A stretch of DNA of 64,000 bases, from NCBI GenBank assembly GCA_033398695.1, contig CM065814.1, positions 107,758,501 through 107,822,500 of the forward strand, in the 5' to 3' direction. Position numbers and translations under genes: made by a program. Each line of letters begins with the position of its first letter. The first letter of the stretch is position 1. Below, one piece after another: positions 557 to 64,000 of the stretch. The notes below the pieces were generated by a model. It worked only from the letters and a program-made list of their open reading frames with translations, did not search any database and was not told the origin of the DNA. The stretch is from Orobanche coerulescens. Taxonomy: Eukaryota > Streptophyta > Magnoliopsida > Lamiales > Orobanchaceae.

Positions 557-1118
557 TAGCGTACGCTAGGCCTAGGCTAACGCACGCTAATTCTTCTTGA
601 GTAGCACACGCTAGCTTTGAGCCGTAGCACGCACTAAGGGACCAGATAGGGCAGAGACAGTAGCTAATCCTGCTCTCTGGACTACCAGTTAGCGCACGCT
701 AGGAGTTAGCTAGCGCACGCTATTCGTGGTCAGTAGCGCTCGCTAACAATGTCCGTAGCGCACGCTAGCGGGCTGGGTCGGCAGAGGCAGTGAGGTTGTT
801 AGGCTATCTGGACTATCAGGTAGCGTACGCTAGGCTTCGGCTAGCGCATGCTACAAGTATTGCGTAGCGCACGCTAAGATATCACATCAGCAAACACTAA
901 GACTCGAATAGGGCAGAGGACATTAGGTTCTGGACTCCAAATTCTGGACACCAGCTCCCAGTTAGCGCATGCTAACTATCAGCTAGCGCACGCCAAGAGT
1001 AGACGATTAGCGCAGGCAGCGGTTTTACCTAACGCACGCTAATGGGGCTGGCAGAAGCCACTGGACTACCCTGTGACCTTGCTAGCGTACGCTAAATATT
1101 GATGTGTAGCGTGCGCTA
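557..1118 (+). promoter_or_regulatory. X promoter lattice of 12-bp palindromes
   Basis: Copies of TAGCGCACGCTA and close variants start at 557, 578, 602, 625; 690, 711, 734, 756; 821, 842, 865; 963, 984, 1008, 1030; 1083, 1107. Within groups the step is 21-24 bp. Groups are separated by 65, 65, 98 (one member decayed) and 53 bp. The final pair ends 11 bp before the TATA box. Linkers carry CTGGAC. The position upstream of the TATA box suggests a U3 enhancer; the binding protein is unknown. Confidence 0.8.
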
Positions 1119-1138: not shown

Positions 1139-1829
1139 GACAGTTGACTTCCATTTCGTCTTTTTTTTCATCCTTCTCACATTACCGATCGGGAGAAGTG
1201 GGTTTTGGCGATTTGGAGAGTTCGGAGGCGATCTTTCTTCAGATATCAACATCTTTGGTTGGAGAACAAGGATTTCACATCTAATCCATTCCATCTTCCA
1301 TATCAAGGTAAAAATCCTTAGAACCCTAATTTTGGGAAATTTGGGGTTTTTCTTAGATTCGTCCAATTTATCCGATTTGGAGCTTGAGAACCTTGAGATT
1401 ATGATGTAGCTACCCCGTATACATGCTTTTTCTATGATTTTACGGATTGGTTTGTGCCGTGTTCAGACTAGTGAGGGCTTGGGTGATTTTCCAACCTCTA
1501 GTTGTTTATCCTTGTATTTTCGTGAATCGCAGACGGGTTTCAGGAGTTTCTTCGTGAGTTATGAGTATGAATTATTGATTATCATATCCCTTACAAATTG
1601 TTTCGGTACCGTAAATGTGTTCTTGGACCTACCGAACTCATACTCTTTTCCGTTCGATTTCTCGATGTCTCAAAGGCAAGTATATATTTATGATTGTATG
1701 TTCTCGACTTTGAAAGTAAGATATATGAATGGCATGATTATTTATATCCACTCTGGGACGGGCCGACGGGTCCTCTGAGGGTTTCGTAGCCTTTGGTGCG
1801 ATTCCACATATAATATGAGTTAACCACTT

Positions 1830-2378
1830 CTCAACCATTCGTAACATCTTTCCCAAATACACAACTCCATTCCAAAGTTTAACTGATATATGATTTCCAA
1901 AATCATAGCTTCTCAAGACCATCAATTCCGTCCCAACTCTATCACCTCATACTGTAACGTATAATATCTTTTTGAATCTCAAAACATATCAACTTAGAAT
2001 GGCAATAAATCTCAATGCAATTTAAAAATCCAAATACTTACAGATCGTGAAGCCGACAATTCCCCGTGATACTGGCACATGTCTCGACTCTAGAAAATAC
2101 TCGACACAAATATTTTCAAAACACACATTTTGCAAACTCAGTTCAACTCGATAACACAACACAGTTCTATCCGAAGAAACACGTTAACACCATTTGGAAA
2201 AGTTTGAAACAACCCCAGTATTACAGTGGTAAATCACATAACGCACAAGCCCGAGTGAACAACAAAAACTCACGGCTCTAATATTTGTCAACCGACAACT
2301 CGAATGACGCGATAAAAACACGACTCCACCCGACCCAACTGCCTAGGTTTTCTCAACCTAAGCTCCGATACCATATTC
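1830..2378 (-). mobile_element. Y internal region, PBS-side fragment
   Basis: Nearly identical to 7796-8347. It starts with the primer-binding site next to LTR1 and breaks off at the X junction (about 1827-1830, where a few bases are shared). No coding capacity. Confidence 0.8.
2361..2373 (-). other. Primer-binding site next to Y LTR1
   Basis: Minus strand reads TGGTATCGGAGCT, one change from the plant initiator tRNA-Met complement TGGTATCAGAGC, five bases from the LTR end. Confidence 0.75.
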
Positions 2379-3419
2379 TGTAACACCCCCAGAGCCATCC
2401 AGGAATATTACAGCGCCGTGGGCCCCGAGATGGAACCCACAAGACTGAAGGAAATTTTCGCAAACATTTACAAACGCCTAAGAGGCGAACGACGATACTA
2501 TCTTTAAAAACATTCGAAGACTTAATATAATCTGTTTAACAAAACCATCGTAAAATTTCATTTGAAATCACAAGGCCCGAAATGCCAAAGCACAACAGTT
2601 TAAAAATATATGTTAAGATATCGCTTACACGTATCAACAAAATAGTTTAGAAAACGATTTCCAAAGTAACCTAAGTTACCAGATACCAAAAGGCCATTTA
2701 GAATACTTACGCAGCGAAAAAAGACAAACAATTAAAATACTCTAGCAGCAGAATACAAGAACTGATCAGGAACTCAAAACATAAATACATGTCCTAGCCA
2801 GTATCCTCCGGGAAGCTCATCTCTCCACGACCGCTACAAGCTTGATAATACAAGAACCTAAAAAGAAAGCCCACGACGGGGTCAGCCATAATATCCAACA
2901 ATGATAACCATCACATCTCGTCAATAATTACATATCAATGAAAATACTAAGTAAGAATACGACCAATGTAATCTTACCACCATAACTTTACCAATTCATG
3001 ATAATATTTACCAAAGTTCACATCTTATATCCTTTCAACAACACAATATGCTCATACCGAAATATCTGTATTGTATCTCAACAATACCCAAGGTTCTCAA
3101 AACATTATCATAACTCACTGTACAAAATCTACTAACTCTGTCCAACCCAATCACATCTCAACATGATAATCGACTGTCCATCAAAGACAAATACCAAAAG
3201 AAATACGGAACATACCTCAGGATATGAAATGCCATGACGAAATCACGTCAGTCTAATCCACGATCAGATCAACACAACATACGGACATGGTCCTAACACA
3301 AGACCTACAAATGCATACTCATATGACAACGTCAATATGCTCACATCAATAACAACACTGTATACTTATGGCAAACCCATAATATACATATGCACAATAA
3401 CAACATCATATATGGTAAT

Positions 3420-3561
3420 CCAACGATCCAGTGCACACAGCTATAGATCCCCATGATGATCCCGTCGGACCAACGCATGGTGGCATTACCTGTCCAACGA
3501 TCCAGCGCACACAGCTATAGATATGCCATGTTGATCCCGTCGGGCCAACGCATGGTGGACA
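3420..3561. repeat. 74-bp tandem duplication in Y LTR1
   Basis: Two units starting CCAACGATCCAG at 3420 and 3494, each with CACACAGCTATAGAT and ending ACGCATGGTGG. The same pair occurs in LTR2 from about 9345. Confidence 0.8.
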
Positions 3562-4315
3562 TATGACAACAATGCACAACTTCACAAAACAACAGTACAC
3601 AATGCACGACAACAACCGTGCACAAATGCATGACAACAACGATACACAAATGTATCACAACATGATCGACACAAAATGACAAAAATGATTAGAGTACTTG
3701 TCCCGAGTCCTTCGAGAGAAATCTCGATGTCCAAACCATCACGAACAATTATCCTCAATACTCGACGGTACAAAATACCACGGACGGTAAATAATTCACG
3801 TCTTCATCTATACCACAATGTATCCTCGATACCAAGTATACCAACAATAAATGTAAATCATATACCTTATGATTTAATCCCAAAACTTGAATACAACCTA
3901 TAATCCCAAATCTCCTGTGATTAAGATTATAAACATTGCTATACGAATTATAAACGAATGAAACTGAAGCCATTCATTAAATATTGTAAAGTGAGCAAGT
4001 AATAACTTGCCTCGATACCGATGAAGCCGTTACCAATTCCATTGCCGTGATCTACAAGTACCTCGGCCCCAATCAATGCAATTCACGAACATTCTCGAAC
4101 ATGACCGCAACGCATAGTTCTAATCACCGATCAATAATCTCAACCTATTACAATAATCTATAAACAACAAGTTCGACAACAATCAATAATCGATAAAACC
4201 AATTCACAAACCCAACATCTCAACAATATCTCGGTTAACCACAAGTCTGATCAAACCAACTTAAACGATCACGAATTTATAGCCGAAACAGAATATACTA
4301 CCCTGCCTGTTGACT

Positions 4316-4397
4316 TAGCGCACGTTAATTACTTAACGTAGCGTGCGCTAAGTTGCTCCCGTTAGCGTGTGCTAGCCAGTAGGCTTAGCGTGCGCTA
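4316..4397 (-). promoter_or_regulatory. Second palindrome tetrad in Y LTR1
   Basis: Four copies of the TAGCG-NN-CGCTA palindrome start at 4316, 4339, 4363 and 4386 (steps 23, 24, 23), about 700 bp downstream of the main TATA box. A TATA-like TAGTATATTC lies 15 bp further downstream on the minus strand (4291-4300). This may be a second promoter. Confidence 0.6.
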
Positions 4398-5074
4398 ATG
4401 ACATGCAGTTGCATGTATTTCGGATACCAATCAACATATGGTGATTATCAAGAACACTAAGTGATTCTGAACCATGTTCAAAGCTATCAAAACAACGAAA
4501 TCTGATATCCTTTAACATACAAACAATCACTCAACTTATAATCCAAGTCCTATATCCATATGTCATCTTCCTCAATATCAACATCATGAAACATTAAGAA
4601 CGTAACAACACTTCCATAATCTATCATTACAGAGATTAATCATCAACAATGACATCAACATCCGCAAAGTAGAAGAAGGATTAACCAACTTATCTCAAAA
4701 AAATAAACTACACGATTCAAATCACACGAATCATATTAATATCATCATACTCCGATAATCCATCTCATAATCATGCTTGTCAACTTGTTAATATGATAAT
4801 TATTAACTCAAGAACATCAATCTTCATTCCAAAATGAAATCCAAAGGTGAAGAGTGATTACCTTGTATAGACGAACCATGTAGGGGAACAATCAGCTTCA
4901 TTCCAAGAATCATCAATAACTTCAAGAACAAGACTTTAATCTATGTTCCTCAGCTTAATCTTGTTAAAGATCATCATCTCTCAGTGTTTGGAATCTCAAA
5001 ATTCTTTCTAAAAACTCTCTCTCTCGAAATAAAGGAAGGAATGGCCGAATGAACATAATTCACATATGCAATCA

Positions 5075-5082
5075 TATATATA
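5075..5082 (-). promoter_or_regulatory. TATA box of Y LTR1
   Basis: Minus strand TATATATA, 11 bp after the last palindrome of the array, the same distance as in X and Z. Confidence 0.65.
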
Positions 5083-5093
5083 CTGACTGTTAT

Positions 5094-5551
5094 TAGCGTG
5101 CGCTACTTTTCCTTAGTAGCGTGCGCTATCGTTGTCCAGAGGGGACTGTTTTGCTTCGCACATCAGCTTACGTACGTAATACCCATGCAATAACGTACAT
5201 AAATTACACTGTCTAGCACACGCAATTTCTTAGACCTTAGCGTGCGCTAATTGTAGTTGACTTGCTACAGTCCGCACCTACCCCCGTGTCCCCACACGCC
5301 AAAAGCACTGACGAGGATAAGATTCCTTTTTGTCCGATCTTCAGTTAGCGTGCGCTAGTCCTTAGATTTTAGCGTGCGTTAGTACTACATTACAACATCC
5401 GTTGACTAGTCGGCACATGCGCCGAAAGTGGCTGGGTTCACACGTAGATTCCCTCTGAGCTGTTCTGCACTAGCGTACGCTAACATATGCCCGTAGCGTG
5501 CGCTACACCTGCACGATAGCGTGCGCTATACATGGGTATTAGCGTGCGCTA
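5094..5551 (-). promoter_or_regulatory. Y LTR1 promoter lattice of palindromes
   Basis: Palindromes start at 5094, 5117; 5168, 5191, 5214, 5238; 5346, 5370; 5471, 5494, 5517, 5540. From the TATA box outward this is pair, gap 51, tetrad, gap 108, pair, gap 101, tetrad. Most read TAGCGTGCGCTA on the plus strand (TAGCGCACGCTA in the element sense). The member at 5168 is TTACGTACGTAA, a form between the X/Y/Z motif and the G1 motif. Confidence 0.78.
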
Positions 5552-5826
5552 ACAAGGCTATATTTAGCCATTTTTAGCTACTCTTGTCCAACGCCTCGAC
5601 CTGCAGAATACGAACATACGGCATACTGAATACATATACATATTCCAACAATATTCTCAAATACAATTGTTGACTAAATACGACAATTATACCAATACAT
5701 ATGTCTTAGTACTTTAATTATTTTCCATACTGTACAGATTCCACGCTGTACAACATTACTCGGATAAAATAACATTAAACAATAGTAGAAGAAATTCCGG
5801 ATATTACTTACTACACCACTTAAAAT

Positions 5827-5846
5827 AAGTTTCGTCCTCAAAACTT
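5827..5846 (-). other. Hairpin next to Y polypurine tract (copy 1)
   Basis: In the element sense AAGTTTTG, loop AGGA, CGAAACTT: an 8-bp stem with one G-U wobble. The equivalent hairpin occurs at the same place in Z, G1 and G2. The second Y copy is at 11754-11773. Confidence 0.65.
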
Positions 5847-6251
5847 GCAATCCATCATAGAAAAATCAACAAACCGTTCAGCCAAAATATTCCGAAACCA
5901 TCACGACAACAATCAATCGTCATTATTAACGAATAACCAACACAGTACACTTACATATGTGCCAAGTCGACGATCTCCTGAGATACTAGCAAGTGACTTC
6001 ACTGTAAAGCCTCAATGTGCTTACAATCACAATTCCATGAGTCTCAACAAAATCTATCATCTTCGGATGAAATAATCTATCCGTGTCAAAACCTGCCTGC
6101 CTGATCGCACAATTAAGTCCCAATTATGATATAATCAATAATATACGATACAGTGAGAAACAACTGCCAAAAACAACGACATAAATCCCGAAACATCGAC
6201 ACAAAATTCAAACGCTCATACAATCATTAACAATGATCAACCAATAAATTA

Positions 6252-6467
6252 ATTGAGAATATCATCAACATGATAAACTCTAATACGACCAATCCAAAGG
6301 TCAAAACACAATCGAGAATATCATCAACATGATAAACTCCAATATGACCAACCAGAGGTCAAAACACAATCGAGAATATCATCATGATAACTCTAATATG
6401 ACTAACGAACGGTCAACGATAATCGAGAATAACTTCACACGGTAAGCTCCAACATGGTCAACACAAA
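6252..6467. repeat. 59-bp minisatellite in Y internal region
   Basis: Units begin ATYGAGAATATCATCAACAT at 6252, 6311 and 6369, with a weaker unit at 6421. Each ends with a GGTCAA motif. The same array is present at 12179-12393. Confidence 0.8.
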
Positions 6468-8330
6468 ACCACAGAAATAGATATACGAAAGAATAACATT
6501 CTCAAAACGACACACCAATCACATACAGTGGATCTCAATAAACACACCTGACTGTCGAACATACTCCTCGGCATACGAACAACCAATTATAAACCGATGA
6601 ACATATCCAATCATACATGGAGTGGGAACGACCACTTAATATCCAAAACCACCAACATGGGGTCACCATCCCCAAATCTACACTTACAGAGAAATCATTC
6701 AAAAATCACTATGGTAAAATCGCACTACTACCATACCAGTGGAATCGCATAGCACATATGTCCCGGTTTCAGAAAATCCAAAGTTCCAAAATCATATTCT
6801 GTACACGAATCTAGGATACGCAGCATATTCTTCTTATCCGATAAATCAACCGATCATCCCTGGACAACCAAACTACCATACTGAAGTTCGAATCTCTATT
6901 CATCGTTCCATACTGATGTCTCATCCAGTTTGTGAGTCACACTTATAACTTCATCATGATATGCACTATGCACTAAATGCGTATTTATATCAGTCACATT
7001 TTCAAAACCAGTTTGAAATCACATAGTCTTGTCAAGAAGACAAATTTTCGAAAGTTCTTTCAAAAATTTCAAAGCTCAAAACATAAATTTTGGTAAGACC
7101 ACAAAATCAATTTTCAAAAAAATTAAATTGGCTCGCTGGTGCCAAATATTCGATAACAGTTTCCTTCGAATCCACACGATCTCGAAGTTTTTAAAATGAA
7201 AAGTATGCAAATGATTGACCACATCCCTACTTCTGTATACCAATTCGGTTCGTCACCAATATCCACTGATATTCCATCGGAAAACCACACGGTAGAGTTC
7301 CAAAATCTCAGTATATAAATCCCGACCAAAAACTCCTATTTCACATATGACTTGCAACGTCAACCATTAACCCATCCTGGATCACCTCAAATATGCTATG
7401 ACAAAATATTGAAACAAATCAACACAGCGAAAGACTTCTCGAGAAGTTTCATTTGAACAAGTAAGCCAAAACCCAAAAAGGCATGGATGAAATAGATAAA
7501 CGATTGATAAAGTGTTTTACAATTCTCGGGAGTTTTAGAAAACATGAAAAAGCCTTTTGAAACATTAGGGTCTCAGCCCGTATATCGTTCCGCATTACAA
7601 AAAGTTTAAAAGTAGGAAACCTTTTTCTGGACCTCGAGTCTTAAGTTATAAAACTATTTCAAAAATCGATTGGGTCTCGGCCCAAAAATCTATTTTCGTA
7701 AAACATCCGTAGAACATTCATTTTGAAAAGTATAATTTTCAAATGCTCGAAAACAGTTCCATATATCTCAAAATGAACTAACATGACTACATGCTCTTCT
7801 CAACCATTCGTAACATCTTTCCCAAATACACAACTCCGTTCCAAAGTTTAACCGATATATGATTTCCAAAATCATAGCTTCTCAAGACCATCAATTCCGT
7901 CCCAACTCTATCACCTCATACTGTAACGTATAATATCTTTCTGAATCTCAAAACATATCAACTTAGAATGGCAATAAATCTCAATGCAATTCAAAAATCC
8001 AAATACTTACAGATCGTGAAGCCGACAATTCCCCGTGATACTGGCACATGTCTCGACTCTAGAAAATACTCGACACAAATATTTTCAAAACACACATTTT
8101 GCAAACTCAGTTCAACTCGAGAACACAACACAGTTCTATCCGAAGAAACACGTTAACACCGTTTGGAAAAGTTTGAAACAACCCCAGTATTACAGTGGTA
8201 AATCACATAACGCACAAGCCCGAGTGAACAACAAAAACTCACGGCTCTAATATTTGTCAACCGAAAACTCGAATGACGCGACAAAAACACGACTCCACCC
8301 GACCCAACTGCCTAGGTTTTCTCAACCTAA

Positions 8331-8342
8331 GCTCCAATACCA
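8331..8342 (-). other. Primer-binding site next to Y LTR2
   Basis: Minus strand TGGTATTGGAGC. It differs from the 2361 copy by one further transition. Confidence 0.7.
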
Positions 8343-10240
8343 TATTCTGTAACACCCCCAGTGCCATCCAGGAATATTACAGCGTCGTGGCCCCGAGATG
8401 GAACCCACAAGGCTGAAAGAAATTTTCGCAAATATTTACAAACGCCTAAGAGGCGAACGACGGTACTATCTTTAAAAACATTCGAAGACTTAATATAATC
8501 CGTTTAACAAAACCATCGTAAAATTTCATTTGAAATCACAAGGCCCGAAATGCCAAAGCACAACAGTTTAAAAACATACGTTAAGCTATCGCTTACACGT
8601 ACCAACAAAATACTTTAGAAAACGATTTCCAAAGTAACCTAAGTTACCAGATACCAAAAGGCCATTTAAAATACTCACGCAGCGGAAAAAGACAAACAAT
8701 TAAAATACTCTAGCAGCGGAATATAAGAACTGATCAGGAACTCAAAACATAAATACATGTCCAATCCAGTATCCTCCGGGAAGCTCATCTCTCCACGACC
8801 GCTACAAGCTTGATAATACAAGAACCTAAAAAGAAATCCCACGACGGGGTCAGCCATAATATCCAACAATGATAACCATCACATCTCGTCAATAATTATA
8901 TATCAATGAAAATACTAAGTAAGAATACGACCAATGTAATCTTACCACCATAACTTTACCAATTCATGATAATATTTACCAAAGTTCACATCTCGTATCC
9001 TTTCAACAACACAATACGCTCATACCGAAATATCTGTATTGTATCTCAACAATACCCAAGGTTCTCAAAACATTATCATAACTCACTGTACGAAATCTAC
9101 TAACTCTGTCCAACCCAATCACATCTCAACACGATAATCGACTGTCCATCAAATACAAATACCAAAAGAAATACGGAACATACCTCAGGATATGAAATGC
9201 CATGACCAAATCACGTCAGTCTAATCCAAGATCAGATCAACACAACATACGGACATGGTCCTAACACAAGACCTACAAATGCATACTCATATGACAACGT
9301 CAATATGCTCACATCAATAACAACACTGTATACTTATGGCAAACCCAACGATCCAGCGCACACAGCTATAGATCCCCATGATGATCATATCGGACCAACG
9401 CATGGTGGCATTACCTGTCCAACGATCCAGCGCACACAGCTATAGATATGCCATGTTGATCCCGTCGGGCCAACGCATGGTGGACATATGACAACAATGC
9501 ACAACTTCACAAAACAACAGTACACAATGCACGACAACAACCGTGCACAAATGCATGACAACAACGATACACAAATGTATCACAACATGATCGACACAAA
9601 ATGACAAAAATGATTAGAGTATTTGTCCCGAGTCCTTCGAGAGCAATCTCGATGTCCAAACCATCACGAACAATTATCCTCAATACTCGACGATACAAAA
9701 TACCACGGATGGTAAATAATTCACGTCTTCGTCTATACCACAATGTATCCTCGATACCAAGTATACCAACAATAAATGTAAATCATATACCTTATGATTT
9801 AATCCCAAAACTCGAATACAACCTATAATCCCAAATCTCCTGTGATTAAGATTATAAACATTGCTATACGAATTATAAACGAATGAAACTGAAGCCATTC
9901 ATTAAATATTGTAAAGTGAGCAAGTAATAACTTGCCTCGATACCGATGAAGTCGTTACCAATTACATTGCCGTGATCTACAAGTACCTCAGACCCAATCA
10001 ATGCAATTCACGAACATTCTCGAACATGACCGCAACGCATAGTTCTAATCACCGATCAATAATCTCAACCTATTACAATAATCGATAAACAACAAGTTCG
10101 ACAACAATCAACAATCGATAAAACAAATTCACAAACCCAACAGCTCAAGAATATCTCGGTTAACCACAAGTCTGATCAAACCAACTTAAACGATCACGAA
10201 TTCATAGCCGAAACAGAATATACTACCCTGCCTATTGACT

Positions 10241-10322
10241 TAGCGCACGTTAATTACTTAACGTAGCGTGCGCTAAGTTGCTCCCGTTAGCGTGTGCTAG
10301 CCAGTAGGCTTAGCGTGCGCTA
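10241..10322 (-). promoter_or_regulatory. Second palindrome tetrad in Y LTR2
   Basis: Counterpart of 4316-4397, with the same four members. The TATA-like sequence again lies 15 bp downstream on the minus strand (10216-10225). Confidence 0.6.
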
Positions 10323-11020
10323 ATGACATGCAGTTGCATGTATTTCGGATACCGATCAACATATGGTGATTATCAAGAACACTAAGTGATTCTGAACCAT
10401 GTTCAAAGCTATCAAAACAACGAAATCTAATATCCTTTAACATACAAACAATCATTCAACTTATAATCCAAGTCTTATATCCACATATCATCTTCCTCAA
10501 TATCAACATCATGAAACATTAAGAACGTAACAATACTTCCATAATCTATCATTACAGAGATTAATCATCAACAATGACATCAACATCCGCAAAGGAGAAT
10601 AAGGATTAACCAACTTATCTCAAAAAAACAAACTACACGATTCAAATCACACGAATCATATTAATATCATCATACTCCGATAATCCATCTCATAATCATC
10701 CTTGTCAACTTGTTTATATGATAATTATTAACTCAAGAACATCAATCTTCATTCCAAAATGAAATCCAAAGGTGAAGAGTGATTACCTTGTATAGACGAA
10801 CCATGTAGGGGAACAATCAGCTTCATACCAAGAATCATCAATAACTTCAAGAACAAGACTTTAATCCATGTTCCTCAGCTTAATCTTGTTAAAGATCATC
10901 ATCTCTCAGTGTTTGGAACCTCAAACTTCTCTCTAAAAACTCTCTCTCTCGAAATAAAGGAAGGAATGGCCGAATGAACATAATTCACATCTGCAATCAT
11001 ATATATATACTGACTGTTAT

Positions 11021-11478
11021 TAGCGTGCGCTACTTTTCCTTAGTAGCGTGAGCTATTGTTGTCCAGAGGCGACTGTATTGCTTCGCACACCAGCTTACGT
11101 ACGTAATGCCCATGCAATAACGTACGTAAATTACACTGTCTAGCGCACGCAATTTCTTAGACCTTAGCGTGCGCTAATTGTAGTTGACTTGCTACAGTCC
11201 ACACCTACCCCCGTGTCCCCACATACCGAAAGCACTGACGAGGATAAGATACCTTTTTGTCCGATCTGCAGTTAGCGTGCGCTAGTCCTTAGATTTTAGC
11301 GTGCGTTAGTACTACATTACAACATCCGTTGACTCGTCGGCACATGCGCCGAAAGTGGACGGGTCCACACGTAGATTCCCTCTGAGCTGTTCTGCACTAG
11401 CGTACGCTAACATATGCCCGTAGCATGCGCTACACCTGCACGATAGCGTGCGCTATACATGGGTATTAGCGTGCGCTA
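11021..11478 (-). promoter_or_regulatory. Y LTR2 promoter lattice of palindromes
   Basis: Counterpart of 5094-5551. TTACGTACGTAA occurs at 11095-11106 and TAACGTACGTAA at 11118-11129. In LTR1 the second of these has decayed (ACGTACAT). One TAGCG palindrome here is hit (GTGAGCTA). Comparing copies shows point decay of individual sites within a fixed layout. Confidence 0.75.
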
Positions 11479-11735
11479 ACAAGGCTATATTTAGCCATTT
11501 TTAGCTACTCTTGTCCAACGCCTCGACCTGCAGAATACGAACATAGGGCATACTGAATACATATACATCTTCCAACAATATTCTCAAATACAATTATTGA
11601 CTAAATACGACAATTATACCAATACAGATGTCTTAGTACTTTAATTATTTTCCATACTGTACAGATTCCACGCTGTACAACATTACTCGGATAAAATAAC
11701 ATTAAACAATAGTAGAAGAAATTCCGGATATTACA

Positions 11736-13179
11736 TACTACACCACTTAAAATAAGTTTCGTCCTCAAAACTTGCAATCCGTCATAGAAAAATCAACAAA
11801 CCGTTCAGCCAAAATATTCCGAAACCATCACGACAACGATCAATCGTCATTATTAATGAATAACCAACACAGTACACTTACATATGTGCCAAGTCGATGA
11901 TCTCCTGAGATACTAGCAAGTGACTTCACTGTAAAGCCTCAATGTGCTTACAATCACAATTCCATGAGTCTCAACAAAATCTATCATCTTCGGATGAAAT
12001 AATCTATCCGTGTCAAAACCTGTCTGCCTGATCGCACAATTAAGTCCCAATTCTGATACAATCAATAATATACGGTACAGTGAGAAACAACTGCCAAAAC
12101 CAACGACATAAATCCCGAAACATCGACACAAAATTCGAACGTTCATACGATCATTAACAATGATCAACCAATAAAATAATTGAGAATATCATCAACATGA
12201 TAAACTCTAATACGACCAATCCAAAGGTCAAAACACAATCGAGAATATCATCAACATGATAAACTTCAATATGACCAACCAGAGGTCAAAACACAATCGA
12301 TAATATCATCATGATAACTCTAATATGACCAACGAACGGTCAACGATAATCGAGAATAACTTCACACGGTAAGCTCCAACATGGTCAACACAGAACCACG
12401 GAAATAGATATACGAAAGAATAACATTCTCAAAACGACAACCAATCACATACATTGGATCTCAATAAACACACCTGACTGTCGAACATAGTCCTCGGCAT
12501 ACGAACAACCAATTTTAAACCGATGAACATATCTAATCATACATGGAGTGGGAACGACCACTCAATATCCAAAACCACCAACATGGGGTCGCCATCCCCA
12601 AATCTACACTTACAGAGAAATCATTCAAAAATCACTATGGTAAAATCGCACTACTACCATACCAATGGAATCGCATAGCACATATGTCCCGGTTTCAGAA
12701 AATCCAAAGTTCCAAAATCATATTATGTACCCGAATCTACGATACGCAGCATATTCTTCTTATCCGATAAATCAACCGATCATTCCTGGACAACCAAACT
12801 ACCATACTGAAGTTCGAATCTCTATTCATCGTTCCATACTGATGTCTCATCCAGTTTGTGAGTCACACTTATAACTTCATCATGATATGCACTATGCACT
12901 TAATGCGTATGTATATCAGTCACATTTTCAAAACCAGTTTGAAATCACATAGTCTTGTCAAGAAGACAAATTTTCGAAAGTTCTTTCTAAAAATTCAAAG
13001 CTCAAAACATAAATTTTGGTAAGACCACAAAATCAATTTCAAAAAAATTAAATTGGCTCGCTGGTGCCAAATATTCGATAACAGTTTCCTTCGAATCCAC
13101 ACGATTTCGAAGTTTTTAAAATGAAAACTATGCAAATGATTGACCACATCCCTACTTCTGTATACCAATTCGGCTCGTC
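11736..13179 (-). mobile_element. Y internal region, PPT-side fragment
   Basis: Matches 5809-7251, then breaks at 13179 (after a shared CGTC) into the Z LTR. Includes the hairpin at 11754-11773 and the minisatellite. No coding capacity. Confidence 0.8.
12179..12393. repeat. 59-bp minisatellite, second Y copy
   Basis: Same unit and copy number as 6252-6467, with point differences, so the array predates duplication of Y. Confidence 0.78.
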
Positions 13180-13374
13180 CGGATGATTATAACCTGAAAT
13201 CCATAACAAGAATTTCCCCACAACGGGTCCCCAGAGGGGTTAGCAATTACGCTAGTACAAGTAATCAAGGCAAACCAATCGCTTACATATTTCATAGTAC
13301 ATGCACCAATATCATTTCAAAAACCAAAACCAGACATGTCTTTTCCGGAAACAAACAGTCAAATAATCAATTTG

Positions 13375-13562
13375 CCTAGGACCAGGACGCCACCATGAAT
13401 CCCACCCGAGTCCTCTAAGGACCCTCCCGAGCTGGCCACTTTATAAAACAAATCACGCATAGGCATCGCCTAGGACCAGGACGCCACCATGAATCCCACC
13501 CGAGGCCTCTAAGGACCCTCCCAAGCTGGCTAGCGAAACAAACTCGTGAATCCAGAGTGAAG
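13375..13562. repeat. 94-bp tandem duplication in Z LTR
   Basis: Units start CCTAGGACCAGGACGCCACC at 13375 and 13469. The second unit is followed by a third, weaker echo (CCCGTCGGACCCTCCC). Confidence 0.8.
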
Positions 13563-14198
13563 TCATAGATTCCCCCGAGGCCCCGTCGGACCCTCCCAGG
13601 GTGAGCAAAGCACACATAATATACAATACCATTCCATGTTAAGCATAAAGGTTTCCAAAAATACTTGCCTTGAATTATTGACGACGTAATGAATGGAAGG
13701 AAAAACACCGACGAACGCTAGGAACCAACGGAACCGAACCTAACGATTCAAAGAATACAATCACAACCAACTCTAGACGAATACAGAAATGGAATACATC
13801 CGAAAATCCACCTACGATTCATGTATATTCGTATAAAAAATAACAAGGGCGGACCACAACCAAACCCTCCCGATTTCGCAAAACCATGAAAATATACCAT
13901 GAATCCATAGGAAAACTAATGATATCAACAAGATTAATCATATTCATCATGAATTAACTAACAGAACGGAACGGATCGAACGAAAATCCCAAAACCCCCA
14001 ATTTATCCAAAAATAGGGTTCTAAGAGATTTTACCTTGGATTAGGATGAAAGATTCGTGTTGATATTGATAATATACACCAAGAACTCAAGAAAGTTGAT
14101 GGTTGAGATGATCGGAAGAAGAAATCGCCCAGAATCGCCTTAGCAGCGGAGAGAAGGAAGAAATGAAACTAATACGTTCATCTCGGTCAACTCCCTGG

Positions 14199-14207
14199 TT
14201 TATATAG
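14199..14207 (-). promoter_or_regulatory. TATA box of Z LTR
   Basis: Minus strand CTATATAAA, 11 bp from the first palindrome. Confidence 0.68.
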
Positions 14208-14218
14208 CCAGGGATTGT

Positions 14219-14765
14219 TAGCGCGCGCTAATCCTCAAAGTTAGCGTGCGCTAACGAAACAAACTCCAGTCCAGTAGCCAGATTTTTGGCCGTTAGCGTG
14301 CGCTACTCTAAATGTAGCGTGCGCTAATAAACTCTCGGTAGCGCGCGCTATCGACCAATAGCGTGCGCTACCTGCACATCAGCCGAGTCCAGAAGCAACT
14401 GTCAGAACACACCTGATCCGGTTAGCGCGCGCTATCGACCAAACGTAGCGTGCGATAAAGTGTATCGGTAGCGCGCTCTATCGACCAATAGCGTGCGTTA
14501 CCAGGGCATCAGTCGAGTCCAGTGGCAAACTGTCCAGTACTGGACATTCACACTAGCGCACGCTACCGGGCGTCTCAGCGTGCGCTAACCCCCGACATTA
14601 GCGTGCGCTAGACTACGTAGCGTACGCTAATCTACCAGTCCAGAGGGCTGGAATCAGCACTGCCACTCCCAGGGCTTGCTCTCTAGCGCGCGCTACGAAG
14701 CAGTCGTAGCATGCGCTACTAAGGGACATCTAGCGTGCGCTATGCAGAAAAGATAGCGTGCGCTA
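14219..14765 (-). promoter_or_regulatory. Z promoter lattice of palindromes
   Basis: Eighteen sites start at 14219, 14242; 14294, 14315, 14339, 14359; 14423, 14446, 14469, 14489; 14554, 14576, 14599, 14618; 14684, 14707, 14731, 14754. Tetrads repeat every 129-131 bp. The pair next to the TATA box is 52 bp from the first tetrad. Every linker contains GTCCAG. Read from the TATA box outward the order is 2+4+4+4+4, the same as in X. Confidence 0.82.
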
Positions 14766-15027
14766 GGTACGAAATATAGACGGTCCAAAACACCGTAATA
14801 TGAACGAAACATCCAACGGAACATCTCAAAATGTATCATAACGTAGAATGGATCCACGGCAACCCCGAAACGGTGGTTCCGCACAACAATGACGAGAATC
14901 AGATCAACAGGTGGCTGAAAAGATACACTGAAAGATACACGACGGTCACTACGACCGAGAAATACACCGAAAATGAAAATACAAGGGAAAGAAAAATGCG
15001 GATATTACATTCTACCCCTCTAAAAAT

Positions 15028-15046
15028 AAGTTTCGTCCCGAAACTT
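15028..15046 (-). other. Hairpin between Z pol stop and polypurine tract
   Basis: Element sense AAGTTTCG, loop GGA, CGAAACTT: perfect 8-bp stem. The purine tract AGAGGGGTAGAA follows up to the LTR start at 15009. Confidence 0.65.
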
Positions 15047-16317
15047 AAGAAACAAACAACTCAGGGTACCTAGCACGCATGCTATCTTCGGTCTCCCAAG
15101 TTGCCTCCTCGACACCATGTCTCGACCACTGCACTTTGACCAAAGGGATGGTCTTATGCCTCAGTCGTTTCTCGTGATGCTCCAAAATCTTCAAGGGACG
15201 TTCTTCAAAAGTAATATCCTCGGCGACATCAATCTCCCCATAGTCGATGACGTGACTAGGGTCCGGGACATATTTCCTCAGTTGGGAAACATGAAAAACG
15301 CTATGAACATGACTCAGGGCCGGGGGTAACGCCAAACGGTATGCCAACCCACCAACTCGCTCAAGAATCTCAAAGGGTCCAATAAATCTCGGACTCAACT
15401 TCTCCTTTTTCCTGAAACAGAAAACTCCTCTCGTCGGCGACACCTTTAGTAGAATGTGGTCTCCCACCTCGAATTCCAAAGGTCGACGACGGACATCGGC
15501 ATATGACTTATGTCGACTCTGGGCAGTCAACATCCATTCCCGAATTAATTCTATCTTCCGCCTCGTCTCTAAAACGACATCCGGCTCGGTCCCGACCAAA
15601 TCGGACGCCTCATTCCAACAAATCGGTGATCGACATCGCCGACCATAAAGTGCCTCGTACGGTGCCATCCGAATCGACGCGTGCCAACTATTGTTGTACG
15701 TGAATTCGATCAATGGCAAATGCTCCTCCCAATCAGTGCTCCAATCGAGAGCACAAGCACGCAACATATCCTCAAACGTCTGGATAGTACATTCCGATTG
15801 TCCATCTGACTGGGGGTGGAAAGAGGTACTCAAATGCAAACGAGTACCCAACGCCTTATGCACCGCCTGCCAAAAGTGCGATACAAAACGGCCATCACGA
15901 TCCGAAACAATAGACTTCGGAGTACCATGAAGCCTCACAATCTGCGCGATAAACACATGGGCTAACTTCTCCGGGCCCCAAGTGTCCTTGATGCCTAGAA
16001 AATGTGCCGACTTGGTCAGACGATCAACAATCACCCATACCATATTCATGCCCGACCTCGATCTCGGCAAACTCGTAAAGAAATCCATCCATATATCTTC
16101 CCATATCCATCGTTGATGCTCGATTTTGACCTGCTGACAAGTCAAACATCTCGCTACAAACTGCGCGACCTCTTCCTTCATATCATTCCACCAGAAATTC
16201 CTCCTCAGGTCCTTGTACATCTTACTCGAACCAGGATGAACGGAGTAAAGGTGTAGCATGGGCCTCACGCAAAATACTCTGTTTCAGCTTTGAGTAGTTT
16301 GGTATACAAAGCCGACT
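15045..16317 (-). pseudogene. pol: Z integrase with chromodomain-like tail
   Basis: An open stretch of 407 codons from 16268 to the stop at 15045. It shows, in order, part of the zinc-binding HHCC domain ([11 protein letters not shown] then CLTCQQ), the DDE core ([13 protein letters not shown], and the acidic residue in FEDML), the GPFEIL C-terminal fold and a chromodomain-like end (VQWSRHGVEEATWE). This is the Tekay/Del-type integrase that inserts the cDNA. About 13 residues are missing between HQR and WEDIWMDF compared with G1, and the frame is cut from the upstream RNase H by a stop near 16318. Inactive as it stands. Confidence 0.9.
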
Positions 16318-18321: not shown

Positions 18322-18403
18322 TAGCGCACGTTAATTACTTAACGTAGCGTGCGCTAAGTTGCTCCCGTTAGCGTGCGCTAGCCAGTAGGCTTAGCGTGCG
18401 CTA
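18322..18403 (-). promoter_or_regulatory. Second palindrome tetrad in Y LTR3
   Basis: Counterpart of 4316-4397. The third member is TAGCGTGCGCTA here and TAGCGTGTGCTA in LTR1 and LTR2, so the three copies differ by single transitions. Confidence 0.6.
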
Positions 18404-19096: not shown

Positions 19097-19554
19097 TAGC
19101 GTGCGCTACTTTTCCTTAGTAGCGTGCGCTATTGTTGTCCAGAGGCGACTGTATTGCTTCGCACACCAGCTTACGTACGTAATGCCCATGCAATAACGTA
19201 CGTAAATTACACTGTCTAGCGCACGCAATTTCTTAGACCTTAGCGTGCGCTAATCGTAGTTGACTTGCTACAGTCCACACCTACCCTCGTGTCCCCACAT
19301 GCCGAAAGCACTGACGAGGATAAGATACCTTTTTGTCCTATCTGCAGTTAGAGTGCGCTAGTCCTTAGATTTTAGCGTGCGTTAGTACTACATTACAACA
19401 TCTGTTGACTCGTCGGCACATGCGCCGAAAGTGGCCGGATCCACACGTAGATTCCCTCTGAGCTGTTCTGCACTAGCGTACGCTAACATATGCCCGTAGC
19501 GTCCGCTATACCTGCACGATAGCGTGCGTTATACATGAGTATTAGCGTGCGTTA
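19097..19554 (-). promoter_or_regulatory. Y LTR3 promoter lattice of palindromes
   Basis: Third copy of the array at 5094-5551, with several C-to-T or G-to-A hits (GTCCGCTA, GTGCGTTA). The TATA sequence lies just below 19090 on the minus strand. Confidence 0.72.
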
Positions 19555-35179: not shown

Positions 35180-35516
35180 TGTAATACCCGTTTGTAATTC
35201 AGTAATTATCATTCAGTAATTGTCACTGTCGGATTATTCACTCATTATTAATCACTCATCATTCATGATTCATTCATTGTATTCATCGTTAGCGTATTTT
35301 AGCCGTGTATCAGTTACCGATCGTCATTCATCTCCGTTTGAGAATCGAGACGAGAAGTATTGTCATAATCATCGTGACTGGTAGTCTTTTGTTGGAAGTA
35401 TCACCTATTACATGTTATCGGACTCATTTATATTCATACAAGTATGGTATGTCGGATTATTCAGCGATGTGTGTCGAGTAGACGGAGTTGTCATTTTGTT
35501 GTTGTCCAACAGCGAG

Positions 35517-35906
35517 TTACGGTCGTAACATGCTTGTATTACGGCCGTAACATGCGTTCATTGTTTTCAGGACATGTCGGATGAAGGGTACTTACGGCTG
35601 TAAGGGTTGCGGCATACGGCCGTAAGTTGAGGCAGGTACGGCCGTAAGGCCTGGCCGGTTATGACCGTAAGATCGAGCAGGGGGCCCGGATTAGTTTTCG
35701 ACAAAGGCTTCTTACGCCGGTAAGTTTTGCCGAGTACGGCCGTATGAGCCGAGTTACGCCCGTAAGGCAGGTGCGGTTACGGCCGTAAGTCTGTCGGCAG
35801 AATTTCGACCAAACCAATTTACGCCCGTACGATGTGGCTGGTCACAGCCGTAAGGCTGTTAACTTGGAGAGGTTACGGCCGTAAGTAGGCTGATTTACGG
35901 CCGTAA
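35517..35906 (+). promoter_or_regulatory. G1 promoter lattice of TTACGGCCGTAA palindromes
   Basis: Fourteen sites start at 35517, 35539; 35592, 35614, 35636, 35659; 35712, 35734, 35754, 35777; 35819, 35842; 35873, 35895. Steps are 20-23 within groups and 53, 53, 42 and 31 between groups, all close to whole helical turns. The last site ends 10 bp before the TATA box. The motif is 5 bp + GC + 5 bp, the same format as TAGCG-NN-CGCTA in X, Y and Z, with different bases. Confidence 0.85.
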
Positions 35907-35916
35907 CATTCGGCAG

Positions 35917-35925
35917 TTTATATAG
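35917..35925 (+). promoter_or_regulatory. TATA box of G1 5' LTR
   Basis: TTTATATAG directly after the array; repeated at 43021 in the 3' LTR. Confidence 0.7.
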
Positions 35926-37547
35926 ACTTGGACGGGATTTTTGCACTCATTTCACCCTTATTCACTTGAGTTCCGAGAGAGAAGATTTTGGGAGGGACTT
36001 TCTTCATCACATCACTTGTTAACGAGTGTTCTAAGCATATATCTTGGATTGGGAAGCTTGGATAATCGATTTATCACAGATTCACCGGATCGAAGTGTTT
36101 GGATTTTCGAAGGTAAATTCTTCAACATCTTAGATTTCGATTTTGAGTTGGGATATGATGTTTTGGATGCTATAATCATGTTGTATGATGTGATATACTT
36201 GTGATTACAAATTGTTAAGGATTATCATCGGATTAATTGGGATTATTTGAAGAACACTTTGAATATTGATTTGGATTTGGGGGTTTTCGTTTAGATGTTG
36301 TTGAAATCTCGAATTGGATATTCATTTTAGATTATTGATTGTGTTGAAGATGTTTTGTTGGATCGAAACACTCCTTGGAAATTTGATATCGATATAATTA
36401 AGGATTGGTTGTAAACAATCAAAGATTGGTTACAACGTGTTTGTTATAATGCCCCAATGAACTTGGATTGTTCATATCGACGTTTTGAGTTAGTTATCAT
36501 CGTGCTTGATACGTATTTTGAGCGGATTGTTGGTAATTGTGTTATTCAAGGTTGTTCGAGCGACCGACATCTCGTTTAGGACATTTGTTCGAGGAAGAAC
36601 ATTCTTCACCGGTGTTGTGTAAGTTAATTCTTACTCGGGTAAAAGGATACTCACTCCTTTCGTTGTTGTTCATTCATAAATCATATTCATTCATAGTGTA
36701 ATAATCATATTGAGACTTGTAATAGTCAACTAATCATTCAATTCACGAGGAACGACGGTTCCAATCACTTCAATGAGCTATAATTCATTCGTTATTATCT
36801 CATCTCGGTGAGTCATTCTTGACCTTTGTCGGATTGTTATTCATTAATGTTCATTGGTCACTTTTGTTCTTGTGGACTTCTGGGTTCGTATTGCGTGGCC
36901 GAGTGGGGATGTGTGGATTTTTTATTCGGGCACATGATAGTCATGTGATCGGGTTCACCGACACATTGGACTGTGCACACGGTAACGTACCTCCGTGAGA
37001 CTAATTAGGTACAAGGGCGGGTGTGTCCGGACACTCGTCTTGTGCACGTTCACATAGCATTACGGGCGTACTATGATGCCCCTCTTCAGCTTAATTTCAT
37101 AATTAAGATATATCATGATTGTCTTTATTCAACTCTTGAGGATTGTTGTTCTGTGTAACTGACCCCGTTGGGGATGTTGTTTTCAGGTTATGGCAAGGCT
37201 AAAGCACGGGAAGAGAACATTGACGGCGAGGAGTCCCAGTAATACTAGTAGGGCCCCCAGTCCATTCGGTCATTCACGTTTTTCTTCATTTTATTTCCGC
37301 TGCAGACTTCCGTTTGAATACTCATTTTTATTTAGTGTTGTATATTTTATCTCCACATAAAATATACATGTATTCTGTATTATCTTGGGTGTGTTGTAAT
37401 GAAACTCCTCATCGGAGTAATTGATGATATAATGTGGTCCGGTACTACAATTATAGTATTTAAGTCATTAATGTTCATTCGCCTTGTGGGTCCCAGTCGA
37501 GGGTCCACGACACTGTAATAGTCGCCTAGTTTGGGGTGTTACAGAGT

Positions 37548-42269: not shown

Positions 42270-44648
42270 TGTAATACCCGTTTGTAATTCACTAATTATC
42301 ATTCAGTAATTATCATTCACTAATTGTCACTGTCGGATTATTCACTCATTATTAATCACTCATCATTCATGATTCATTCATTGTATTCATCGTTGGTGTA
42401 TTTTAGCCATGTATCAGTTACCGATCGTCATTCATCTCCGTTTGAGAATCGAGAGGAGAAGTATTGTCATAATAATCGTGACTGGTAGTCTTTTGTTGGA
42501 AGTATCACCTATTGCATGTTATTGGACTCATTTATATTCATACAAGTATGGTATGTCGGATCATTCAGCGATGTGTGTCGAGTAGACGGAGTTGTCATTT
42601 CGTTGCTGTCCAACAGCGAGTTACGGTCGTAACATGCTTGCATTACGGCCGTAACATGCGTTCGTTGTTTTCAAGACATGTTGGACGAAGGGTACTTACG
42701 GCCGTAAGGGTTGCGGCATACGGCCGTAAGTTGAGGCAGGTACGGCCGTAAGGCCTGGCCGGTTACGACCGTAAGATCGAGCAGGGTGCCCGGATTAGTT
42801 TTCGATGAAGGCTTCTTATGCCCGTAAGTTTTGCCAAGTACGGCCGTATGAGCCGAGTTATGCCCGTAAGGTAGGTGCGGTTACGGCTGTAAGTCTGTCG
42901 GCAGACTTTCGACGAAATCGAGTTATGCCCGTACGATGTGGCTGGTCACGTCCGTAAGGCCGTTGACTTGGAGAGGTTACGGCCGTAAGTAGGCCGAGTT
43001 ACGGCCGTAACATTCGGCAGTTTATATAGACTTGGACGGGATTTTTGCACTCATTTCACCCTTATTCACTTGAGTTCCGAGAGAGAAGATTTTGGGAGGG
43101 ACTTTCTTCATCACATCACTTGATAAGGAGTGTTCTAAGCATATATCTTGGATTGTGAAGCTTGGATAATCGATTTATCACAGATTCACCGGATCGAAGT
43201 GTTTGGATCTTCGAAGGTAAATTCTTCAACATCTTAGATTTCGATTTTGAGTTGGGATATGATGTTTTGGATGCTATAATCATGTTGTATGAAGTGATAT
43301 ACTTGTGATTACAAATTGTTAAGGATTATCATCGGATTAATTGGGATTATTTGAAGAACACTTTGAATATTGATTTGGATTTGGGGGTTTTCATTTAGAT
43401 GTTGTTGAAATCTCGAATTGGATATTCATTTTAGATTATTGATTGTGTTGAAGATGTTTTGTTGGATCGAAACACTCCTTGGAAGTTTGATATCGATATA
43501 ATTAAGGATTGGTTGTAAACAATCAAAGATTGGTTACAACGTGTTTGTTATAATTCCCCAATGAACTTGGATTGTTCATATCGACGTTTTGAGTTCGTTA
43601 TCATCGTGCTTGATACGTATTTTGAGCGGATTGTTGGTAATTGTGTTATTCAAGGTTGTTCGAGCGACCGACATCTCGTTTAGGACGTTTGTTCGAGGAA
43701 GGACATTCTTCATCGGTGTTGTGTAAGTTAATAATTACTAGGTTAAAAGGATAATCAATCCTTTCGTTGTTGTTCATTCATAAATCATATTCATTCATAG
43801 TGTAATAATCATATTGAGAATTGTAATTGTCAACTAATCATTCAATTCACGAGGAATGACGGTTCCAATCACTTCAATGAGCTATAATTCATTCGTTATT
43901 ATCTCATCTCGGTGGAGTCATTCTTGACCTTTGTCGGATTGTTATTCATTAATGTTCATTAGTCACTTTTGTTCTTGTGGCCTTCTGGGTTCGTATTGCA
44001 TGGCCGGGTGGGGATATGTGGAATTTTTAGTCGGGCACATGATAGTCATGTGATCGGGTTCACCGATACATTGGACTGTGCATACAGTAACGTACCTCCG
44101 TGAAACTAATTAGGTACAAGGGCGGGTGTGTCCGGACACTCCTCTTGTGCACGTGCACATACCATTACGGGCGTACTATGATGCCCCTCTTCAACTTAAT
44201 TTCATAATTAAGATATATCATGATTGTGTTTATTCAACTCTTGAGGATTGTTGTTCTGTGTAACTGACCCCGTTGGGGATGTTGTTTTCAGGTCATGGCA
44301 AGGCTAAAGCACGAGAAGAGAACGTTGACGGCGAGGAGTCCCAGTGATACTAGTAGGGGCCCCAGTCCATTCGGTCATTCATGTTTTTCTTCATTTTATT
44401 TCCGCTGCAGACTTCCGTTTGAATACTTATTTTTATTCAGTGTTGTATATTTTATCTCCACATAAAATATACATGTATTCTGTATTATCTTGGGGGTGTT
44501 GTAATGAAACTCCTCATCGGAGTAATTGATGATATAATGTGGTTCGGTACTACAATTATAGTATTTAAGTCATTAATGTTCATTCGCCTGATGGGTCCCA
44601 GTCGGGGGTGCACGGCACTATAATAGTCGCCTAGTTTGCGGTGTTACA
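42270..44648 (+). mobile_element. G1 3' LTR
   Basis: Same parts as the 5' LTR. It has a 15-bp longer start (an extra AATTATCATTCA-type unit near 42295) and scattered substitutions, many of them C/T or G/A at CpG sites. Confidence 0.93.
42621..43010 (+). promoter_or_regulatory. Palindrome lattice of G1 3' LTR
   Basis: Counterpart of 35517-35906, with the same length (390 bp) and spacing. Several sites differ from the 5' copy by one transition (CG to TG or CA). Confidence 0.83.
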
Positions 44649-48680: not shown

Positions 48681-49673
48681 TGTAATGCCCCGACTTTCTA
48701 GGCATAATTATAGGGAAAAATAAGTAAAAAGGTGAATTTTAACGAAAAATAAATTCATTTGAGAATATTAAAATTCTCGCCTATAAAGTCAAATTGCTAC
48801 ACTGACTAAAATAAATATATATTACTTAAGGCAACGACATGTCATAATTGAGGTCATAATTACGGCGGAAGAAAATTTAAATTTATTATTACTAATCAAG
48901 AGTTTCCCCAAATAAATAGTTCAAAGCATAAGACATAAAAACAAGAACACCGTTTTAATAAAAATATCATCATATACCCTCTCGTCTTGCTCCTCCGTCC
49001 ATCCGACTTGGCTTAACCTGCGGAATCAATATATGTGGGGGTGAGCTTCCTCCAGCTCGTGAAAATAACACATATCACAATAATATACAAATTCATGGAA
49101 ACAATTTAATGATTATTATATCAATAAAATTTTCCTCAACATGAATACATACACAGAGTATCACATATAACATGAATCTAGCACGCATATGAATATTGAG
49201 GTTGTGCAGGTGTCCCAATACAATATATATCTTAAGATAGCCTCTTTATACTTACACAAGTGAGCCTGATTTACAACATGTATTCTTAATTTAAAACATA
49301 AATAGAATATCACATGGCGGTCCAAGTAAAGCAATTAAAGTGGAAATTCCCACTTGAATAAAATGATGCTGCTTGAACTTGAATATGAAGATGCTTGACT
49401 CCAAGTCGTAAGCCCGTAAATCCTTGTTAATATCTATAATTAGAATATTTTAAATTATTATTATTATAACATGACTAAACACAAAAATAGAAGTATTAAG
49501 TTAGATAACTAAAAGGGTAATGTTAAAACTTTGGTCAAACATGGGCTCGTTTGAAGATATTGAAAAACATTGGAATCAATTTGCAAGAATTCAAAACTGG
49601 AGGGATAAAGTAAAATTTTACCAAAAGTTGGGAATATAAGTTCCCTTTCTCCGCACCCGAAGGTCATCAGTTT

Positions 49674-49788
49674 CCTCTCTCTCTCTCTCTCTCGCTCTCG
49701 CTCTCGCTCTCGCGCTCGCTCTCGCGCTCGCGCTCGCGCCCTCCCTCCCTCCCTCCCTCTCCCTCCCTCCCTCCCTCCCTCCCTCCCT

Positions 49789-49841
<53 letters not shown>
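49674..49841. repeat. Compound microsatellite in G2 3' LTR
   Basis: (CT)n, then CTCTCG/CGCTCG repeats (about 49693-49738), (CCCT)n (49739-49796), then (CT)n to 49841. The 5' LTR has only short CT runs at the matching place (near 63310-63335). It gives rise to an arginine/glutamate-rich open frame on the minus strand that is not a gene. Confidence 0.93.
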
Positions 49842-62265: not shown

Positions 62266-64000
62266 TGTAACGACCCGACTTTCTAGGGATAATTATGGAA
62301 AAAATAAGTAAAAAGGTGAATTTTCACGAAAAATAAATTCTTTTGAGAATATTAAAATTCTCGCCTATAAAGTCGAGTCGCTACACTGACTAAAATAAAT
62401 ACCTATTAATTAAGGCAACGACATGTCATAATTAAGAGGTCATAATTGCGGCGGAAGAAAATTTAAAAATTATTATTACTAATCAAGAGTTTCCCCAAAT
62501 AAATAGTTCAAAGCATAAGACATAAAAAAAGAACATCCTTTTAATAAAAATATCAGCATATGCCCTCTCGACTCGCTTCTTCGTCCATCTGGCTCGGCTT
62601 AACCTGCGGGATGAATATAGGTGGGGGTGAGATTCCTTCATCTCGTGGAAATCACACATATCACAATAATATACAAATTCATGGAAAGCAATTTAATGAT
62701 TATTCTATCATTAATATTTTCTTCAACATTAATACATACACACAATATCATATATAATACTTAATCTAAAGACGCATGAATATTGAAATTTTGCATGTGT
62801 CCCCACACAACATATATCTTAAGATAGTCTCTTTACACTTACACAAGTGAGCCTGATTTACAAAATGTATTCTGAATTTAAAACATAAATAGAATATCAC
62901 ATAGCAGTCCAAGTAAAACAATTAAAGTGATAGTGGAAATTCCCACCCAAATCAAATGATGCTGCTTGAACTTGAATATGAAGATACTTGACTCAAAGTT
63001 CTAAGCCCGTAAATCCTTGTTAATATATACAATTAGAATATTTTAAATTATTATTATTATAACATGACTAAAAACAAAAGTAGAAGTATTAAGTTAGATT
63101 TAAGTTAGAATTAAGTTAAAAGGGTAATGTTAAAGTTTAGTCAAACATGGACTGGTTTGAAGATAATGAAAAACATTGAAATCAATTTGCAAGAATTCAA
63201 CCGGAGGGCATAAACATAAAGTAAAATTTTACCAAAAGTTGGGAATATAAGTTCCCTTTCTCCTCACCCGAAGGTCATCAGTTTCATATCCCTCATTTCA
63301 CTCTTCAATTCTCTCTCTATATCTCTCTCTCTCTAGAAACTCTCACTGCTGCAAAAGTCGGGTTTCTCCCTCTCTTTCTGAAGTGAAGTTTTTATCTCCC
63401 TCTCTATGACTCTCCCTGTGAACCTCAGTTACAAGTACCCTCATCACCACCGAGCAATAAAATACCAGCACATTGACTGCTTTGAATGTGCAAATCGGCC
63501 ACAAAACTAAACGGCTCAAACTGTGGCTGCAATTTCCGACGAAGCGAAAGTGGCTCCGTCAATTAGGATTTGAAGGCTGATTTGTTTATAGGTTCAGATT
63601 TGGAAAAATCTAGAACTTGTTTTGATTTCAGGATCCAAAAAAAAATCCGGGTTGGGTTCCGTGGGTATGACGCTGATATTCAGTTTTGGTTATTGATTCC
63701 TATTGGATGACTGAATGGGCTGAAGAACTGGGTTGGAAAACCCGAGTTTGGATTCGGTATTAGGAATGATAGTGATTTTATTTGTGAAATTTTCTAAAGG
63801 GTTGCAGGGGGACAAGAAGAAGGAGATCTGAAACTACAAGTTTAAGTTTTATTTTGCAAAATTCCAGCGTGATAATATGACAAGGATGATGAGACATAAG
63901 CTAGATAGGAAATTTACCTTCGATGGAGAGGAGTAGATTTGCAGAGTTAAGAAATCAGCAATGGCCAATCGATGGAAAAAAAAGTGTATTGTGTATTTGT
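62266..64000 (-). mobile_element. G2 5' LTR, incomplete at the window end
   Basis: Starts TGTAACGACCCGACTTTC. It matches the 3' LTR at 48681-49909 and 53941 onward, without the microsatellite and without C2, so it shows the empty state of both. About 0.55 kb should lie beyond 64000. Confidence 0.9.

Follow-up and report, generated by a model that had tools for sequence, protein, structure and literature searches.

An array of eighteen 12-bp palindromes in the U3 region of a minus-strand Ty3/gypsy LTR is probably the upstream control region of a chromovirus-like LTR promoter, offering about 18 dimer-docking sites to a single host protein. The array (array b) occupies positions 14219–14765 of the window, by which we mean the whole stretch of Orobanche coerulescens DNA that was analysed (64 kb). 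In the mechanism we propose, some 18 adjacent sites would dock one host DNA-binding protein, bound as a dimer; the dimers would be packed about 22–23 bp apart, two of them always beside the TATA box, and would jointly recruit the transcription machinery or hold the CpG-dense U3 open. On the evidence of this one window the array looks functional, and from it we infer that the protein binds as a dimer and cooperatively, that it activates, that it comes from the host and that binding specificity differs between LTR families.

The 18 sites match the 12-mer TAGCGNNCGCTA on the minus strand, 13 of them exactly and five with one mismatch. They form a TATA-proximal pair (starts at 14219 and 14242) and four tetrads, with starts at 14294, 14315, 14339 and 14359; 14423, 14446, 14469 and 14489; 14554, 14576, 14599 and 14618; and 14684, 14707, 14731 and 14754. 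A previous sequence-only reading of this DNA had described eighteen 12-bp palindromes, and each was found where it had been placed (≤1 mismatch each), as were the distances between tetrad starts (129, 131 and 130 bp), the inner steps of 19–24 bp and the 52 bp from the pair to the first tetrad. The same reading had put the array 11 bp from the TATA box (TATATAAA, 14206–14199, minus strand), a figure obtained only when the preceding C is counted; from the upstream edge of the box to the nearest site we measured 12 bp. An inverted repeat, CCCTGG (14193–14198) and CCAGGG (14208–14213), encloses this TATA box.

Such a concentration of sites is far from chance expectation. Across the whole 64-kb window, the 12-mer has 75 matches with ≤1 mismatch, against 0.54 expected from shuffles, and all 75 fall within stretches that we interpret as LTR. 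Array b also came first when clusters of gapped palindromes were sought de novo (18 in 600 bp), with the arrays of another element (family D, below) next once AT-rich runs and alternative readings of the 12-mer were set aside. When ten random windows were generated from an order-1 Markov model, nine contained no cluster of five or more palindromes and one contained a poly-T cluster of five.

LTR b extends over 13180–15009 on the minus strand, with boundaries drawn by eye, and starts with TGTAATATCC at 15009; its other limit, 13180, marks the contact with a duplicated block at 13179 and is not a called 3′ end. The array begins 244 bp into this LTR, spans 547 bp and ends just short of the TATA box. 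Adjoining it, 35 bp before the LTR start, is the 3′ part of pol (15045–16268, minus strand), which was recognized by Pfam and by its translation and which carries Integrase_H2C2 (integrase zinc-binding) and SH3_Tf2-1 domains (Pfam) of the Ty3/gypsy type. A Pfam search of this ORF at E 0.001 returned no chromodomain match, and its tail looks chromodomain-like by eye; several homologues that are 56–60% identical to it have precomputed chromodomain annotation (PF00385). The best ten of the 7970 proteins scored show 52–66% identity over 86–98% of the query, and the organisms named among the matches listed (at least 120) are plants. We take the element that carries array b to be a Ty3/gypsy retrotransposon, probably chromovirus-like. 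Because the pol homologues come from plants and the array has an LTR context and a TATA box (TATATAAA), we read it as a plant retrotransposon promoter.

The same 12-mer also fills the U3 of two further LTR families in the window, a and C. Array a (557–1118, plus strand) has 16 sites, 15 with ≤1 mismatch and one with two, and its architecture of groups followed by a final pair, here before a TATA box at about 1130, nearly equals that of b. Its groups start at 557, 690, 821 and 963 (133, 131 and 142 bp apart), and some of their members have decayed. Family C is present in three copies on the minus strand, each with 10 pre-TATA sites (≤2 mismatches) and with a quartet of the 12-mer about 690–770 bp downstream of the TATA box (steps of 23, 24 and 23 bp). 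In copy 1 (5094–5551, with a TATA box at about 5082) the 10 sites make up a tetrad and three pairs (≤2 mismatches) and the quartet lies at 4316–4397; copy 2 occupies 11021–11478 (quartet 10241–10322), and copy 3, whose LTR is shorter, occupies 19097–19554 (quartet 18322–18403).

The letters of these sites are sharply bounded. Over 44 sites chosen by consensus with ≤2 mismatches (16 from a, 18 from b and 10 from C copy 1), the information content is 1.1–2.0 bits throughout the 12 positions and ≤0.24 bits at the eight flanking bases on each side. The motif had been proposed as TAGCG-NN-CGCTA; the palindromic arms are borne out, and the free NN centre is not, since CA dominates there (in promoter sense CA 29, CG 6, TA 5, TG 3 and CT 1). 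Because the centre is mostly CA (29 of 44, with three TG), the sites are oriented, a common orientation that is possibly due solely to origin by tandem copying. Decay of a central CpG is disfavoured as the source of this centre, as CA far outnumbers TG in promoter sense. A literature search with the letters of the 12-mer, judged by titles and abstract openings, found nothing related.

Comparison of a with b separates the sites from the sequence between them. At 16 aligned sites, which were picked by consensus and are to that extent biased towards high identity, 147 of the 160 outer letters agree, whereas the 10 inner spacers agree at 38%, as against 42% when shuffled; this comparison omits two decayed a positions, three adjoining inner spacers and one linker. 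Adding the two decayed a sites at their best offset gives agreement at 161 of 180 letters. Because the sites agree and the inner spacers are random, what has been conserved is the sites and not the repeat. The idea that this promoter array is a binding target is thereby strengthened: it is an LTR promoter array in which sites, not spacers, are kept between families, as protein binding predicts.

The same comparison bears on whether the lattice is a functionless product of unit copying, first of about 23 bp and then of about 130 bp. Array b contains a segmental duplication (14292–14403 against 14421–14534, 81% identical over 115 columns), and the units of array a are mutually similar at about 70–72%, sites included. 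Describing the array as ‘not a simple tandem repeat’ is correct only in part, because the tetrads at 14294 and 14423 sit within this duplication; array b is a diverged higher-order repeat, and its 130-bp period partly reflects duplication. As an account of the whole array, we nevertheless consider copying alone very improbable: neutral copies would decay evenly, yet the sites of a and b are about 90% identical beside random inner spacers, and a TATA-proximal pair is common to four families, one of which has other letters.

Outside the sites, three linkers of a and b score above shuffles at z 2.7, 1.1 and 0.8 (mean z of 1.27 in an all-against-all comparison), and z is 2.1 for the DNA that lies upstream of the array; a and b therefore retain a trace of common ancestry there. 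Linkers of D showed no such trace, with a mean z over shuffles of 0.31 against a and 0.12 against b. A second conserved motif of LTRs a and b is CTGGACT, of which every one of the four a linkers (within 637–1082) and four b linkers (within 14254–14683) has a single copy, always in promoter sense; these copies make up eight of the 11 in the window. The b linkers concerned, all read on the minus strand, are 14254–14293, from the pair to the first tetrad, and 14371–14422, 14501–14553 and 14630–14683, between tetrads.

Family D is a different Ty3/gypsy element with a pair of LTRs (35180–37543 and 42270–44648) that are 95.5% identical. The array in its 5′ LTR (35517–35906, plus strand) is built on a 12-mer of its own, TTACGNNCGTAA, with 14 sites (≤2 mismatches), seven of which contain CGGCCG, spaced at steps of 22, 53, 22, 22, 23, 53, 22, 20, 23, 42, 23, 31 and 22 bp; the array in its 3′ LTR (42621–43010, plus strand) has equal steps. 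Despite its different letters, D keeps the 20–23-bp steps and a lattice similar to that of the other families. Scans of viral contigs for adjacent site pairs returned four stretches per motif, with 2–4 sites in each retrieved stretch.

One element of the geometry is fixed across all four families (a, b, C and D): the last two sites start 23–24 and 46–47 bp from the TATA box. Past this proximal pair, which the shuffles kept fixed, site positions agree between families no better than with shuffled steps (six family pairs, p 0.07–0.52), a result that counts against an array of docked dimers. The 130-bp period, claimed at first for b, holds there and roughly in a, but not in C or D.

The sequence-only reading had further placed the sites roughly on one face of the DNA. 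At 10.5 bp per turn a shared face is ruled out, with R of the sites at 0.14–0.29 and the sites spread round the helix; what survives is a period of about 10.85 bp in a and D, weak in b and absent in C. Consecutive long steps cluster at 10.5 bp (R 0.57, p 0.004 versus uniform steps), with a mean turn of 54 degrees, and successive steps turn by about 51 degrees on average. The best-fit period is 10.95 bp in a, 10.85 bp in b and 10.80 bp in D. When every step is jittered, at most six in 10,000 random arrays match the fits of a, b and D (0.09 for C); restricting the jitter to the long steps gives p values of 0.011 in a, 0.13 in b, 0.003 in D and 0.71 in C (joint 0.008), so that the unphased C and the value for b alone also speak against docking. 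After manual grouping of the long steps into distinct classes, p is 0.03 both with C included (n = 7) and with C left out (n = 4), and the steps of 31, 42, 53 and 65 bp increase by about 11 bp. A helical rule for the sites is likely, though not at the pitch of relaxed DNA, and dimer packing at about 22–23 bp would account for most of the helical fit. Going further, and tentatively, the Ty3/gypsy elements of this plant may share a promoter scaffold whose geometry (proximal pair, steps of about 22 bp, phase of about 10.85 bp) is selected independently of the letters, in which case the letters of D, which differ from those of a, b and C at all sites together, would make the lattice a record of a change in partner protein or in its binding specificity; we treat this as possible but doubtful.

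The downstream quartet of C, superfluous for an activator that works purely from upstream, also weighs against a docking array and draws attention to another role, in which the sites would recruit not a classical activator but a protein that either counteracts DNA methylation, by removing or blocking it as VANC does, or establishes a chromatin boundary. C sites flank the TATA box on both sides, and array b is dense in CpG, with 56 in 547 bp (O/E 1.34, GC 0.55) against an O/E of 0.92 for the window; C (1.29) and D (1.40) are similar and a reaches only 0.98. In the accessible part of the VANDAL study (PMC5735166), VANC motifs accumulate as tandem repeats and vary among related VANDAL families. 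VANDAL elements code for VANC themselves, and its motifs are given there as YAGTATTAY and AGTTGTCC/AGTTGTAC. Both systems have arrays of short motifs in non-coding DNA and related families with different, jointly changed motifs, and for arrays whose motif letters differ from one relative to the next, VANC targets in VANDAL elements offer the best parallel. The published VANC motifs in that part are different from the palindrome of array b; in the window YAGTATTAY occurs four times and AGTTGTCC/AGTTGTAC once, scattered and never inside the palindrome arrays. No VANC-like gene appeared among eight of the 15 ORFs that reach 150 aa, where Pfam gave retrotransposon domains or nothing relevant, in a general scan rather than a dedicated search and with element b incomplete in the window. 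The fixed TATA-proximal pair also suits promoter function better, and overall we judge an anti-silencing or insulator array unlikely. A related case is the Drosophila gypsy insulator, which resembles array b as a cluster of sites (for Su(Hw)) that a host protein binds in a Ty3/gypsy-type element, and differs in lying within the 5′ untranslated region, in its unrelated motif and in its animal host.

Selection could also act on secondary structure, with RNA or single-strand hairpins that would feed small-RNA silencing as well, as in maize, where later work links palindromes to small RNAs and small-RNA hotspots lie at the palindrome-rich LTR regions of Sireviruses (excerpts of PMC5311732 and PMC10760457). 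Folded as single-stranded DNA, the array strand is indeed far more stable than 100 shuffles (z −6.28), but any set of palindromes would fold well. Compensated changes were found at 0 of 16 symmetric position pairs in a, b and C and at 0 of nine in D, counts that apply to pairing within sites, pairing between sites being possible too. The conserved centre does not pair, and the distance to the TATA box is fixed. Selected hairpins are, in our estimate, quite unlikely, and we return to protein docking at the promoter as the preferred reading.

In that reading the array resembles the known pre-TATA palindrome arrays of Sireviruses; what is new is the class of element, a geometry that has been measured and, in D, another set of letters. 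According to the sections of PMC2829016 available to us, the repeated motifs of Sirevirus (Ty1/copia) LTRs are palindromes in at least eight copies, lying chiefly in the upper LTR half; they start 200–400 bp past the PPT junction, extend for 300–500 bp upstream of the TATA box and form CpG islands shortly before this conserved box, with letters that vary by family and flanks that diverge. Array b is likewise palindromic with dyad symmetry and has 18 copies where at least eight are required; it starts 244 bp after the LTR start, lies before the TATA box and, at 547 bp, is slightly longer, and its GC of 0.55 and O/E of 1.34 are those of a CpG island, as judged from these values and not by an island-calling program (a, only 0.98).

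The differences are equally specific. The host element of array b is Ty3/gypsy and not Ty1/copia, and a CGG-CCG core, found in 12 of 13 published Sirevirus motifs (PMC2829016, in part), is lacking from the palindrome of a, b and C (CG-NN-CG, mostly with a CA centre), while D has CGGCCG in seven of its 14 sites. The tetrad lattice, the fixed proximal pair and the phase of about 10.85 bp were not met within the same sections of PMC2829016, which call the repeated motif Sirevirus-specific and absent from classic retrotransposons. Palindromic repeat arrays are present in cis-regions of several TE families (as cited in PMC10760457). Our literature search, by titles and abstract openings, found no such array described in a plant Ty3/gypsy element. 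Palindromic promoter arrays of the Sirevirus type are extended to Ty3/gypsy elements, and a measurable geometry is added, in which the repeat step and a pair anchored at the TATA box persist while the inner spacers randomize and, in D, the letters differ. The Sirevirus authors left open the identity of the host protein behind such arrays (PMC2829016, in the part available), and a sharply bounded, multi-copy 12-mer is a clean bait for a host protein on which such retrotransposons may depend.

Two further features of the window concern its repeats. A 5.4-kb block is duplicated at 96.6% identity (1827–7254 and 7796–13179), the second copy being the one that abuts LTR b; by eye it seems to comprise a 3.4-kb LTR with internal sequence on either side, the arrangement that unequal recombination of a retrotransposon would leave. 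A CTCT-type microsatellite of about 42 four-base units (49675–49841) adjoins a dispersed repeat at 48681–49692, a copy of which lies at 62266–63304.
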